Below are positions 1 to 5,669 of a stretch of 32,515 bases of DNA, piece after piece (positions within the stretch are counted from its first letter, which is position 1; each line of letters opens with the position of its first letter). The stretch comes from an uncultured Anaerolineales bacterium (GTDB lineage Bacteria; Chloroflexota; Anaerolineae; Anaerolineales; UBA4823). The position numbers and the translations under genes are program-made. Location of the stretch: contig CAIQJJ010000758.1 of NCBI GenBank assembly GCA_903872065.1, positions 1 through 32,515 of the forward strand. The letters are read 5' to 3'. The notes under the pieces are model-generated. The model did no database searches, was not told the origin of the DNA, and saw nothing but the letters and a program-made list of their open reading frames with translations.

Positions 1-3000
1 ACGCGAACATCAATTATACGCTCTTTCAAAACCTTTTTAAAACGGGCGATCAGCGCCGGAAAACGCTCGGCTGGCACAGCAAGAACTGTTGGCGAACTAT
101 CGCTCTTAGCGGGCTCTGGCATTTTCAGGTTGGCGGCAGTGACGTTGATGAGAGAATGTCCTTGATATTGCAACAAACGCGACAGCATAAACGCATCCAC
201 TGGCTCTAACATCAACAGCACTTCGTAACCATAAGAATTCACTACGTCAAGCTGAGGACTATAAAGCAGCGAACGCAGATCACTGCGCTCATCATCGCTC
301 AAGATATAATAAATGGCTTGCTGTTCAGGCTTCATACGGGCTACATACTCATCCAATGAAACCCAGGCTTCTGGATGGGTTGTGGTATGAAAACGCAGTA
401 ATGCCGGCAAAGTCTCATGTTCCATCTGGTCAGCGGTCAAACTCTCTTTGATATAGCGACCGAATTCCTTCCAAAACCGCTCGTAAGCTTCTTTATCGTC
501 AGCCGCCAGCGTTTCGAGGATGTGGATCACTTGTGCAGTAACGTACTTCTTTAGAGCAGGCATCATCGAACTGGCTTGCGCGGCCTCAGGCGTGATATGG
601 GGAGATAAATTATCCGAATCCACTACCCCTTGCACAAAGCGAAAATAATCGGGAAGTAAATCTTTGCAATAATCTTGAATCAATACTTTACGAGCATACA
701 ATCGCAGGCCATCATCTTTGCGCAAAGAGAATAGACCGCGATCAAAACGAGATGGAATGTATAGCAAGGTATAAGCATGCACAGAGGTGGTCTCAACACT
801 ATGCCTATAGGCTAAGGGAGGTTCAAAATCGAGGGTAAACTGCCGGTAAAAAGCAGCGTAATTCTTTCTTTCTATTTCCTGCAGCGGCTGACGCCAGAAC
901 ACGGTGGAAAGATTAGCCTGAACTTCGGGATCGCCGACATAAATGGGATAAGGGATAAAGTTTGAATGTTTGCGAATGATCTCTACCAGGCGCTGTTGCT
1001 GCAAGAATTCGGCGGCATCGGCCTTAAGTTTAATGATGACTGTTGTTCCCCGATTTGCTTTCTCTGCCATTGCAACTGTAAATGTATCTTCTCCCTGGCT
1101 AAACCAGGCAGCCGCCTCAGCCGTTGGCCAATATGGGCGCGAGATCACACGCACCCAATCGGCAACCATAAACGTCGAAAAGAATCCTACGCCAAATTGG
1201 CCAATGACATCGAAAATATGTTTCCCGCCGGTTTTTGCAGTTTCTAAAAAGGAGCGTGCGCCGGCATGAAGCGTTGACAGATTTTCTTTTAATTCTTGCA
1301 CGCTCATTCCTACCCCCTGGTCAGTAATTGTCAAAATGTTTTCTGATGGGTTCGCCGTAATACGAATAAAGAGCGGCGCTCCTGGCTGCAACACGTCCCG
1401 ATTGTTCAGAAGTTCAACTTCCATACGCGTGAGGGCAGCCGAGGCATTGGCGATTAACTCACGCAAGAAGACTTCGCGGTCAGTATATTGGGCGCGGCTA
1501 AGAAGCTCCAACAATTGGCGTATTTCTACCTTAAAAGGCGTTGATTGGATCGGAGCACTGGGGGACTTAGGAGTGGAGAGGGACTCTTCTCCTGAAGCGA
1601 TGACTAAGGGGCGCGTGCTCCGCAATTGATTCCGGAGATCATAAAAGCGTTTAAGCGCCTCAATCCCTTTTGAAAGGTCTGCGGTTCGCTTGCGATAACT
1701 GGCGCGCGCCAGAGCAGAGCGGATGTTTTCGATTTGCTGCTCAATTTCGCGCATCGCCTGCTGTTGACGAACACCGCGGCGCAAGTCATTTTCGCGCGCT
1801 TGTAGAAAACTAAAATAATACTGGCTGTGCAAATCGTAAACGCGCTCATTTTCCTCGGGTAGAGCAGCCAATTTTTCGCTGGCATAGTGCTTGAGCAAGG
1901 GTTGAAGTGAAAAACCATGTGAGGCGTCGCCCTTGAGCAGCGAAAAATCCATAAACATTGATAGCAAAGGCAAAGAAGCGCCGGCGACTGCCTGAGCAGC
2001 CTCAAGAGTAAAGCCATCCTGGAAAACTGCCAGGCGGCGAAAAATCGCTTTATCCATGTCTGAGAGACGCTTCCAATTTTGATCGAACACGGCGCGAATG
2101 CTGCGATGACGTTCAGGCATATCCAGCATCGGGGACTGCAAAATATTAATGTCCCGCTGTAAATCTTTAGCAATTTGTTCGCAGGAGAATTCGCGCAAAC
2201 GAGCGGCGGCAAGTTCAATAGCCAGTGGCAAGCCATCTACCAATTTGCAGATTTGGATAATATGAGGGAATTCTTTTTCGGTCGCGACAAAAGCTGTATT
2301 GCTGCGGGTGGCGCGGCTCAGAAAAAGCTGCACTGCAGGATACTCAGCAACATTGGCTTGCTGTAAATCAACAGGATACCCTAAACCTTTCAACTCCAGT
2401 TGGGTCGCGGCCTGGTAGTTAAGCCGCTGCCGACTGGTGATGATTACTTTCACCGATGGCGCCTGCTGAAGAATTTCGAAGATCAAGCCAATTTGATTAA
2501 GCATATCCTCAATCCCATCAATCACCAAAAGGGCGCTCAATGGCATCAGAAATCGAATAAGCTGTTTTTTGGGTTCGGCGTCACCCCGAAACGATAGGCC
2601 AAAAGCCAGGGCAATACTCGGCACTACCAAATCAGGAGAACCGAGTGTGTCCAGAGAAATAAAGCGGATTCCATCGGAAAAGAGATCGCCATGCGCTTCA
2701 GCAGCTTGCAAAGCCAGACGGGTTTTTCCGATTCCTCCTATCCCTACAATAGTGATTAAACGCACGGATGGGGTAGTCAAAGCCTGGTGCAGCCAGTCCA
2801 ATTCTGCCTGGCGACCCACAAAAGATGTGAACTGGGTAGGCAAATTTACCCGTTTGAGAGACCCCGTCACTGGCCTGGTTACTGAAAGAGTGTCCCCATT
2901 TTTGATCTTTTCATAAAAGCTAACCGTTTCAGGGGAAGGTTCGACGCCAAATTCATTGAGCAGAATCCGGCGACAAGTCTGGTATTGTTCTAATGCAGCC

Positions 3001-3674
3001 GCGCGCCGCCCACTAACCGATAAGATGCGCATCAAGCGGCGATGTGCGCTTTCATCCAAAGGATCGAGGCTCACCAAACGCCGCGCGTATTTATGCGCCA
3101 GTTCAAAATCACCAACATTTTGGAAATAATCGCTGAGCGTCTGCAAACCAGAGAGCAGATAACGAAAATATTGCTCCCGTTGAAAAACAATCCACTCTTG
3201 AAAATCAGCACAATCGGGCAAAAAGAGGCCAGAGAGAAAGTCGCCGCGATAGAGATCCACCGCGGCCTGTAAATGCTGTGCGCAAGATAGACAGGTTTCA
3301 ATATTTTTATGGGTGTGCGCCAAAGTGTAACGAATATGGTTATTGAAAGCTTCGGTATCCAGCCAATACGACTGACTCAGATTAAAACGTACAGTCGTAT
3401 CATCTACCAATAAATAGGGGGTAGACGAATCGCGATCGCCGATTGCGCGACGCACACCCAAAAGCGCCTGACGCAAGTTTGTCCGTGCAACCCCTTCTGG
3501 TCGTTCGGGCCAGAATAACTCAGCCATTGCCTCGCGCGTATGGGGATGATCCGATTCGACAACCACATAGGTCAGCAAAGCGCGTTCTTTTTCAGTACGC
3601 AGCGATGCTGTGATGTTGGTATCGTCTAAATTGACCTGAAAAGGTCCTAATAAATACAGTCCAAGAGAAGGCAC
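1..3674 (-). CDS. SARP/BTAD - NB-ARC (STAND) regulator fused in frame to Hsp90 (HtpG); 3' end beyond window
   Basis: One stop-free minus frame covers 1224 codons and leaves the window at the left edge. In order: a SARP winged helix (about residues 5-95, with TEKERALLTY and ARTNLRQAL), BTAD helices (about 100-245), NB-ARC from FVGRQAEL (about 285), Walker A GIGGIGKT at 311-318, a Walker B-like LLVIDG near 383, GLPLAIELAAARL near 478, and an ARC/helical part to about 690. After a Ser/Pro linker, Hsp90 begins near 710: ELIANAS with Glu739 and Asn743, DQGVGM with Asp785, IGQFGVGFFS, then the middle domain. The dimerisation domain would lie off-window. Start: GTG at 3674 has AGGA about 7 nt upstream; GTG at 3680 is possible; an in-frame TGA sits at 3690-3692. 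There is no in-frame ATG or GTG in the linker, so a separate htpG gene is unlikely. Predicted cytosolic; role inferred as an ATP-dependent signal-sensing transcription regulator. Confidence 0.88.
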   Translation of the reverse strand, partial: MPSLGLYLLGPFQVNLDDTNITASLRTEKERALLTYVVVESDHPHTREAMAELFWPERPEGVARTNLRQALLGVRRAIGDRDSSTPYLLVDDTTVRFNLSQSYWLDTEAFNNHIRYTLAHTHKNIETCLSCAQHLQAAVDLYRGDFLSGLFLPDCADFQEWIVFQREQYFRYLLSGLQTLSDYFQNVGDFELAHKYARRLVSLDPLDESAHRRLMRILSVSGRRAAALEQYQTCRRILLNEFGVEPSPETVSFYEKIKNGDTLSVTRPVTGSLKRVNLPTQFTSFVGRQAELDWLHQALTTPSVRLITIVGIGGIGKTRLALQAAEAHGDLFSDGIRFISLDTLGSPDLVVPSIALAFGLSFRGDAEPKKQLIRFLMPLSALLVIDGIEDMLNQIGLIFEILQQAPSVKVIITSRQRLNYQAATQLELKGLGYPVDLQQANVAEYPAVQLFLSRATRSNTAFVATEKEFPHIIQICKLVDGLPLAIELAAARLREFSCEQIAKDLQRDINILQSPMLDMPERHRSIRAVFDQNWKRLSDMDKAIFRRLAVFQDGFTLEAAQAVAGASLPLLSMFMDFSLLKGDASHGFSLQPLLKHYASEKLAALPEENERVYDLHSQYYFSFLQARENDLRRGVRQQQAMREIEQQIENIRSALARASYRKRTADLSKGIEALKRFYDLRNQLRSTRPLVIASGEESLSTPKSPSAPIQSTPFKVEIRQLLELLSRAQYTDREVFLRELIANASAALTRMEVELLNNRDVLQPGAPLFIRITANPSENILTITDQGVGMSVQELKENLSTLHAGARSFLETAKTGGKHIFDVIGQFGVGFFSTFMVADWVRVISRPYWPTAEAAAWFSQGEDTFTVAMAEKANRGTTVIIKLKADAAEFLQQQRLVEIIRKHSNFIPYPIYVGDPEVQANLSTVFWRQPLQEIERKNYAAFYRQFTLDFEPPLAYRHSVETTSVHAYTLLYIPSRFDRGLFSLRKDDGLRLYARKVLIQDYCKDLLPDYFRFVQGVVDSDNLSPHITPEAAQASSMMPALKKYVTAQVIHILETLAADDKEAYERFWKEFGRYIKESLTADQMEHETLPALLRFHTTTHPEAWVSLDEYVARMKPEQQAIYYILSDDERSDLRSLLYSPQLDVVNSYGYEVLLMLEPVDAFMLSRLLQYQGHSLINVTAANLKMPEPAKSDSSPTVLAVPAERFPALIARFKKVLKERIIDVR

Positions 3675-3715
3675 TATCACTTCCTGGTGTCAACAAAAAG
3701 TTAAAGTGGATCAAT

Positions 3716-3743: not shown

Positions 3744-3745
3744 AA

Positions 3746-3785
3746 TCACGGAAAAATCACGCGTGTATCACACGCATTTCACGCC
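3746..3785 (+). promoter_or_regulatory. four 11-bp-spaced direct repeats, candidate SARP operator
   Basis: TCACG, TCACG, TCACA and TCACG start at 3746, 3757, 3768 and 3779, an exact 11-bp period. Seen as heptamers they read TCACGGA, TCACGCG, TCACACG and TCACGCC. SARP regulators (ActII-ORF4, DnrI, AfsR) are known to bind heptameric direct repeats spaced 11 bp, with the last repeat about 8 bp from the -10 box. Here a GATAAT box begins 7 bp after the last heptamer. An 8-bp inverted repeat (3734-3741 with 3783-3790) and a 6-bp one (3761-3766 with 3770-3775) overlap the array. The site lies between the SARP-fusion gene and the divergent genes. Confidence 0.62.
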
Positions 3786-3792
3786 TATCAAT

Positions 3793-3798
3793 GATAAT
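3793..3798 (+). promoter_or_regulatory. candidate -10 box downstream of the direct repeats
   Basis: GATAAT at 3793-3798 has no good -35 hexamer; the position is occupied by the TCAC repeats, as at activator-dependent SARP promoters. It would drive the small gene at 3834/3843 and perhaps genes beyond it. Confidence 0.4.
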
Positions 3799-3833: not shown

Positions 3834-4064
3834 GTGAATCCTATGTCAATTAACCAAAACAGCTACCAATCATATTTACTCAGAATGTGGAAAGAGAGCG
3901 CCAATGGGGAGTGGCGGGCCGTTTTGTTGAGCATCCCTACTCAAGAGCGCCGACATTTTTCCAATCTGCAATCTCTGTTTGAGTTTTTAGGCAACCAAGA
4001 GGACTACACACTTTCTATCCACCAAAACGAACCGGCAATGACAAGTGCATTGCCGGTGGAATGA
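3834..4064 (+). CDS. small conserved-looking protein, function unknown
   Basis: This 76-residue ORF starts at GTG 3834; ATG at 3843 (73 residues) is an equally good choice because neither has a clear Shine-Dalgarno sequence. It contains YLLRMWKE, GEWRAVLLSIPTQERRHF and LFEFL. From memory, short Chloroflexota proteins with a similar pattern (YLLRLW, WRA, ER-F, LFAFL) are common, but no function is known to me. It has no signal peptide or membrane segment and is probably cytosolic. It is divergent from the SARP-Hsp90 gene and directly behind the repeat array, so it is the most likely direct target of that regulator. Its last codons form a strong inverted repeat. Confidence 0.6.
   Translation: MNPMSINQNSYQSYLLRMWKESANGEWRAVLLSIPTQERRHFSNLQSLFEFLGNQEDYTLSIHQNEPAMTSALPVE
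4031..4057 (+). terminator. 10-bp perfect hairpin over the end of the small gene
   Basis: ACCGGCAATG at 4031-4040 and its exact complement at 4048-4057 enclose a 7-nt loop, just before the stop codon at 4062-4064. The downstream stretch is only moderately T-rich (TTTCTTT), so termination may be partial. It would separate the small gene from the glycan genes. Confidence 0.45.
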
Positions 4065-4157: not shown

Positions 4158-5669
4158 ATGGCTGAGTATATAACCAATTTTGAGAACCCACTGGAAACCC
4201 CCCTGATGATGAAAATACACAGGGCTACTAGCAGTTTATCGCGCGAGGCGCAGTGGCGCGTTTTTCGGATCTTCCTGGTGATGAATGATCTCCTGATGAT
4301 GGGGTTGGCTTTTCTGGCAGCGTATCATCTGCGGTTCAACGCTTCAATTAGTATTTTTAATGAGACTGTAAGCCAGGATATTGCTTTTTATCGTATGCTG
4401 GTCTTTTTCTTGCTGCCGCTCTGGCTTGTGCTGTTCGGTATTATGGGGCTGTACCAAAAACGGTTCTTGCTGGGCGGAATTGAGGAATATTCACGTGTCT
4501 TTCGATCAGTGACAATCGGTATTTTGGGCATCATCGTTCTAAGCTTTCTGGATAGTCGTTTTGTCGTTGCACGTGGATGGTTAATTCTATGCTGGCCGAT
4601 CTCTTTCCTGGCAGTGGCGATTGGGCGTTTTTCGCTGCGGCGCGTCGTGTACTCTCTGCGTCAGCATGGTTACTTCCTCACTCCAGCAGTCATCATTGGC
4701 GGCAACCAGGAAGGGCGTTGGTTGGCTGAACAATTAGCCAGTTGGAAAACCTCAGGTCTGCTGCTGCTAGGTTTTGTGGATGAAAAAGTTGCTCCAGGCA
4801 CACGCTTGTATGGCAAACTGCTTTCACTTGGTTCAGTGGATCAATTGGATGAAATTATCGAGCGCTATGATATTGGTGAGCTAATCCTGGCGACAAGTGC
4901 AATCTCCTCACGCAACAAACAGCTTGAAATCTTTAAGCGCTACGGCGTTTCCAGCAAGGTTAATGTGCGCATGTCATCGGGATTGTATGAAATCATTACC
5001 ACCGGCCTGACGGTCAGTGAATTTGCGTATGTTCCTTTTGTGACGATCAACAAAGCCCGCCTGACTGAGATAGATGAGGCGATGAAGTTTTTGCTGGATT
5101 ACGCGATTACTATCCCCTTGTTGGCGCTTTTCATGCCGTTTTTCCTGGCAATCGCTATCATGATCCGAATGGACTCTTCTGGGCCAGTCATCTACCGGCG
5201 GCGCGTTATGGGCATGAATGGAAAGAGTTTCGATGCGTTCAAGTTCCGCACGATGTATACAAACGGGAACGAGATTCTGGATAAGCATCCTGCACTGAAA
5301 CTTGAATTGGCCCAAAACCATAAACTGAAGCACGATCCCCGGATCACGAAGATCGGCGCTTTCTTACGCAAATACAGTCTGGATGAGCTGCCTCAGTTGT
5401 TCAACGTCCTGCGGCGTGAGATGTCTCTGGTTGGGCCACGTATGATCACTCAGGAAGAGGTCTCGATGTATAATCAGTGGGATATCAATCTCCTGACTGT
5501 ACGCCCCGGCATCAGCGGTCTCTGGCAGGTTAGCGGTCGTTCCGACATTTCATACGAGGAGCGGGTTCAAATGGATATGTACTACGTCCGGAACTGGAGC
5601 ATCTGGCTGGATCTGCAAATTGCCATGCAAACGCCGTGGGCGATTATTAAAGGCAAAGGCGCTTATTAG
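4158..5669 (+). CDS. polyprenyl-phosphate sugar-1-phosphate transferase (initiating, WcaJ/WbaP/EpsE type)
   Basis: Predicted to move a sugar-1-phosphate from a nucleotide sugar onto undecaprenyl phosphate at the inner face of the membrane, the first step of repeat-unit assembly. The 503-residue length fits the family. The N-terminal third has about four or five membrane segments, followed by a Rossmann-like domain (IIGGNQEGRWLAEQL, about residues 178-192), another hydrophobic segment near 315-335, and the catalytic bacterial sugar transferase domain: KFRTM near 361, DPRITKIGAFLRKYSLDELPQ near 393-411, LVGPRM, RPGISGLWQVSGR and the YVRNWS region. An SD-like sequence precedes the ATG. The sugar specificity cannot be read. 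It is the first enzyme of the glycan locus. Confidence 0.93.
   Translation: MAEYITNFENPLETPLMMKIHRATSSLSREAQWRVFRIFLVMNDLLMMGLAFLAAYHLRFNASISIFNETVSQDIAFYRMLVFFLLPLWLVLFGIMGLYQKRFLLGGIEEYSRVFRSVTIGILGIIVLSFLDSRFVVARGWLILCWPISFLAVAIGRFSLRRVVYSLRQHGYFLTPAVIIGGNQEGRWLAEQLASWKTSGLLLLGFVDEKVAPGTRLYGKLLSLGSVDQLDEIIERYDIGELILATSAISSRNKQLEIFKRYGVSSKVNVRMSSGLYEIITTGLTVSEFAYVPFVTINKARLTEIDEAMKFLLDYAITIPLLALFMPFFLAIAIMIRMDSSGPVIYRRRVMGMNGKSFDAFKFRTMYTNGNEILDKHPALKLELAQNHKLKHDPRITKIGAFLRKYSLDELPQLFNVLRREMSLVGPRMITQEEVSMYNQWDINLLTVRPGISGLWQVSGRSDISYEERVQMDMYYVRNWSIWLDLQIAMQTPWAIIKGKGAY

Follow-up and report, generated by a model that had tools for sequence, protein, structure and literature searches.

To our knowledge, NLR-like switches have chaperone partners only in trans. 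A close described system is AfsR, a large SARP of SARP-NOD-TPR composition, in which the SARP domain is kept inhibited by the NOD and TPR parts until ATP is bound (PMC10936776). SARP sites consist of repeats placed 11 bp apart, the last of which lies 8 bp from the -10 element (PMC10936776, PMC4393881). As for the chaperone component, a catalytic role has been described for Arg336 of HtpG and the equivalent Arg380 of yeast Hsp90 (PMC3310708). Here, we describe a locus in which the two kinds of module appear to be joined in one protein.

The window, that is, the whole stretch of DNA that was analyzed (32,515 nucleotides), corresponds to an entire contig (C758) of a fragmented 7.49-Mb Chloroflexota bin comprising 927 contigs, with 4% contamination. 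A single stop-free frame of 1,226 codons on the reverse strand (3..3680) exits the window at the contig end, and the fusion gene (1..3680, reverse strand) is therefore incomplete, its 3' end missing, with a product of at least 1,226 aa. Two GTG codons could serve as its start, at 3680 or 3674, and the latter is likelier since it is preceded by AGGAA six bases upstream; residues are numbered from GTG 3680 throughout. The first-pass annotation, based on GTG 3674, had proposed that one stop-free frame joins SARP/BTAD, NB-ARC, and Hsp90 N and middle domains, which both the frame and the Pfam and NCBIfam matches bear out. The functional residues that it named (Walker A at 311-318, Glu739, Asn743, and Asp785) are those given below under our numbering.

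The N-terminal half, like the rest of the gene encoded on the reverse strand, has the features of a large SARP, with a full-length alignment to SARPs. It starts with a SARP OmpR-type winged helix (residues 29-87, 3420..3596), assigned from this full-length similarity together with a weak Trans_reg_C match under the Pfam cut-off. This is followed by a BTAD (residues 107-259, 2904..3362; Pfam 6e-24) and an NB-ARC/NOD module (residues 292-496, 2193..2807; Pfam 1.5e-5, over the cut-off), which exhibits an intact Walker A motif, GIGGIGKT (residues 313-320, 2744..2721), and a GLPLAI motif at residues 483-488. This half is ordinary, departing from its relatives at 7 of 57 conserved columns, while these relatives themselves depart at 0-7. 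As defined by alignment with SARP relatives, a post-NB-ARC region ending in the remnant of a first TPR helix extends up to residue 687 (1620..2192). The C-terminal TPR sensor of large SARPs is absent: its first helix begins and is then followed by Hsp90.

The Hsp90 half consists of an N (GHKL) domain (921..1544) and a middle domain with the beginning of the C-terminal part (3..920). Pfam recognizes HATPase_c_3 at 738-848 and HSP90 at 923-1225 (1e-74), and the NCBIfam HtpG equivalog PRK05218 matches residues 714-1225 (6e-138, over the cut-off). The contig ends ahead of the C-terminal dimerization domain, and a search of the other contigs of the genome for the rest of the C-terminal part returned no separate piece. 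An AlphaFold model of residues 540-1226, built from seven sequences, was set aside for its poor confidence (mean pLDDT of 56, and below 45 across a large part of the middle domain).

In BLAST comparisons with ~30 SARP relatives, similarity (about 31-44% identity) ends in most cases at approximately residue 687-690, past which the relatives continue into TPR repeats, and similarity to Hsp90/HtpG begins at residue 713-714. TPR repeats lie downstream of the NB-ARC region in 9 of 9 scanned SARP relatives, in line with the earlier observation that Hsp90 sits where TPRs normally follow NB-ARC. The 25 residues in between (688-712, 1545..1619; junction peptide FYDLRNQLRSTRPLVIASGEESLSTPKSP) contain no ATG, GTG, or TTG codon, which places the predicted fusion point within or just ahead of the N-terminal tail of an htpG that appears to have lost its start codon. 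The sole common start nearby, a TTG at residue 686, lies in SARP-homologous sequence behind a weak upstream site and is an unlikely start. Hence no separate htpG start, a possibility raised in the first-pass annotation, was found.

While the Hsp90 half aligns throughout with HtpG, it departs from it at critical places. The ATP-site residues Glu741, Asn745, and Asp787 are retained, as are the glycine motifs GVGM and GQFGVGF. In contrast, the catalytic-loop Arg (HtpG Arg336, yeast Arg380), which is invariant in the HtpGs compared, is replaced by Pro1031, in a loop (residues 1023-1032, 614..585) that reads DNLSPHITPE versus EDLPLNVSRE in relatives. The equally invariant N-box Asp is replaced by Ala748, and the lid hinge GTIA has become STL, with one residue deleted. 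Moreover, the Hsp90 half has evolved faster than every free HtpG compared, on a branch of 1.53 versus a median of 0.38 (approximately four times), and departs at 22% of the columns invariant in the others, whereas none of the free relatives exceeds 3%. With these catalytic, N-box, and lid-hinge residues lost and evolution faster than in free HtpGs, a normally cycling chaperone is unlikely. Consequently, of the self-regulating chaperone in cis suggested by the first-pass annotation, the domain order stands, and the idea of a working chaperone is weakened. A nucleotide-sensing role could nevertheless be served, as the ATP-contact Glu, Asn, and Asp and the glycine motifs are kept.

The main alternative to a retained domain is passenger drift: a real deletion would have joined the SARP gene to htpG, the Hsp90 tail would be functionless, and the SARP-NB-ARC portion would work alone, in the manner of the known medium SARPs without TPRs (PMC10972967). 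The loss of key catalytic residues and the occurrence of the fusion in one genome agree with such decay, and so does the distribution of the extra divergence, which affects conserved columns about as much as variable ones (additive x 0.14-0.25). This evenness indicates that constraint is weak or changed and, being what weak constraint predicts, is a caveat to the explanation that we favor. However, neutral decay to the same divergence would be expected to leave 4.6-5.8 stops, and zero stops, as seen here, occur in at most 0.7% of runs; the indels relative to HtpG relatives are whole codons only. The departures, furthermore, are clustered, affecting 22 of 64 conserved columns in ATPase elements versus 11 of 95 elsewhere (Fisher p=0.0007, with element limits set post hoc), and they are rare in the last part of the Hsp90 half (3 of 29). 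We thus regard decay as rather unlikely, and read the Hsp90 part as a domain retained as protein and freed from the chaperone cycle, which is probably repurposed and hydrolysis-impaired.

A clue as to what the fusion might control comes from the region upstream of it. The fusion gene is separated from a small ORF transcribed divergently from it by a region in which four repeats (ATCACGG, ATCACGC, ATCACAC, and TTCACGC) follow one another with an exact 11-bp period on the forward strand (3745..3784), and a -10 box, GATAAT (3793..3798), starts 8 bp past the last of them. This predicted operator and -10 layout fits a textbook SARP promoter, and four TCAC repeats at 11 bp were found in 0 of 100 shuffles. 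The repeats point toward the small ORF and a polysaccharide cluster. The ORF (3843..4064, forward strand, 73 aa) has no Pfam match. It recurs divergently beside SARP genes, at least 23 of its 43 matches on other contigs, from its own genome and relatives, lying within 900 bp of one, which suggests a partner gene conserved alongside SARPs. In contig C56 of one relative (G010, ~856-905), ATAACGG, ATAACAG, and ATCACAG are spaced at 11 bp and end 8 bp before AATAAT, immediately ahead of an ORF related to the small one. The next gene, encoding a priming sugar transferase (Bac_transf, 4158..5669, forward strand), is the first large gene of the polysaccharide cluster and a likely target of the operator. 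The biosynthesis cluster is long (4158-32426), with genes for the sugar transferase, glycosyltransferases, a flippase, and asparagine-synthase-like and radical SAM proteins.

Genome-wide (7.5 Mb), the triple-repeat pattern occurs in two further places, on contigs C567 and C3. On its own, this pattern is expected to yield approximately one chance match, as many as were obtained with a reversed control. However, the two sites have the spacer letters in common as well, and each lies exactly 8 bp from a NATAAT box, which makes three such promoters in the genome. The promoter on C567 (4589-4641), near-identical to that of the window, precedes a second polysaccharide operon encoding a protein without Pfam match, a second priming sugar transferase, and a glycosyltransferase. 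The one on C3 (4210-4251), also near-identical, precedes a TadE pilus operon encoding two TadE proteins and one TadE/G-like protein. These polysaccharide and pilus operons form a candidate regulon, and the shared operator supports an origin of the three contigs from one organism. A fourth match to the promoter pattern, near a cytochrome b gene (C654), has just two matching repeats and was dismissed as chance. It is its adjacency to the operator that suggests the fusion's SARP as the user of these predicted sites; as the SARP/NB-ARC half has eleven further matches in the bin, a different SARP may be the one served by the operator.

Taking together the domain order, the operator geometry, the loss of catalytic residues, and the presence of a second HtpG, all read from the sequence, we tentatively favor, with somewhat less than even confidence, a large AfsR-like SARP in which the sensor has been replaced by a repurposed, probably hydrolysis-impaired Hsp90, and which controls surface genes. 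The TPR sensor would have been replaced, from inside its first helix onward, by an HtpG copy captured from within the family. The SARP domain would bind the tandem 11-bp repeats and recruit RNA polymerase at the polysaccharide and Tad-pilus promoters, including that of the operon divergent from the fusion gene itself. By analogy with AfsR, the NB-ARC module would be an ATP-gated inhibitory switch and the C-terminal domain its input. An Hsp90 that keeps the nucleotide-contact residues and lacks the catalytic Arg points to ATP or polypeptide being held at this input, and we infer that such a sensing module, which would probably bind one and/or the other and hydrolyze ATP poorly, controls the NB-ARC switch. 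Routine chaperone work would fall to the second HtpG. Counting against this explanation are the restriction of the fusion to a single genome, the fragmented bin, and a gene cut at the contig end. We consider unlikely the more specific proposal of a one-protein proteostasis switch, in which the non-catalytic Hsp90 would sense unfolded protein or ATP in cis and free a STAND-type activator of the polysaccharide and pilus genes.

These readings all require that the two halves be joined in a living cell. An assembler might have joined a SARP gene to a divergent htpG, and the position at a contig end, in a fragmented metagenome bin, invites this suspicion, especially as chance joins land in frame one-third of the time. 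The fusion is, in addition, a singleton among the genomes, plasmids, and viral contigs searched. Genomes from the family and order (81), the class (396), and the phylum (400) did not show it among the matches listed, and all other Hsp90 matches listed lie in open frames of less than 900 aa, with lengths close to 620-690 in nearly every case. The fusion protein is not covered to 80% by any plasmid record, no relative of it was found in viral contigs, and our literature search found no paper on BTAD or SARP, NB-ARC, and Hsp90/HtpG in one protein. The first-pass annotation had named a lack of homologs with the same fusion as grounds for refutation, and none was found in this search, a result that a lineage-specific fusion would also explain. 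However, the two halves have GC3 values of 0.48 and 0.47, versus 0.725 in the bin's other htpG, and codon usage correlates at 0.80 between the halves, versus 0.53 between the fused and other htpG. In the tree, the Hsp90 half falls within its own family's HtpGs, with a support of 100/100. The continuity of composition and codon usage, the lack of a plausible separate Hsp90 start, and this placement together make it probable that the fusion is real. The end sequence, moreover, is found on no other contig, and a simple join to a working htpG would be insufficient, as catalytic residues kept by every free HtpG compared are lost. The second HtpG of the bin is intact, with ordinary residues, and is located on contig C414; in the tree it clusters with HtpG from G015, which belongs to the same family. 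We find a chimera quite improbable.

We are just as doubtful that the Hsp90 C-terminal domain mainly serves to clamp two SARP-NB-ARC chains into a constitutive activator. In its favor, HtpG is a constitutive dimer, and in such a role the loss of ATPase residues would be tolerable. Furthermore, SARP domains act on DNA as dimers with the subunits side by side, whereas AfsR at full length is mostly monomeric in solution (PMC10936776). However, the C-terminal domain in question lies outside the sequenced part, and the nucleotide-contact residues are retained.

If real, the fusion that we favor would tie a chaperone covalently to an NLR-like switch, and would also be a repurposed Hsp90 in which the nucleotide pocket is kept and the catalytic Arg is gone. 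The candidate promoters that come with it allow a direct measurement of how the Hsp90 part affects transcription. With AfsR-type large SARPs, it shares the order of SARP, BTAD, and NB-ARC/NOD, the Walker A motif, and a predicted operator in which direct repeats with an 11-bp period stop 8 bp short of the -10 box. It differs from them in having Hsp90 N and middle domains where AfsR has a TPR sensor, and in its putative targets, which are polysaccharide and pilus operons rather than antibiotics. With HtpG (PRK05218), it shares an alignment throughout residues 714-1225 and a place within the family's own clade, but it is fused to a transcription activator and is altered in the catalytic Arg, the N-box Asp, and the lid hinge. 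Finally, it resembles chaperone-dependent NLR-like proteins such as bNACHT25, a STAND protein linked to a chaperone through its requirement for DnaJ (PMC12169576). However, the chaperone of bNACHT25 acts in trans and htpG is dispensable (PMC12169576), whereas in the fusion the link would be covalent and the output would be transcription.
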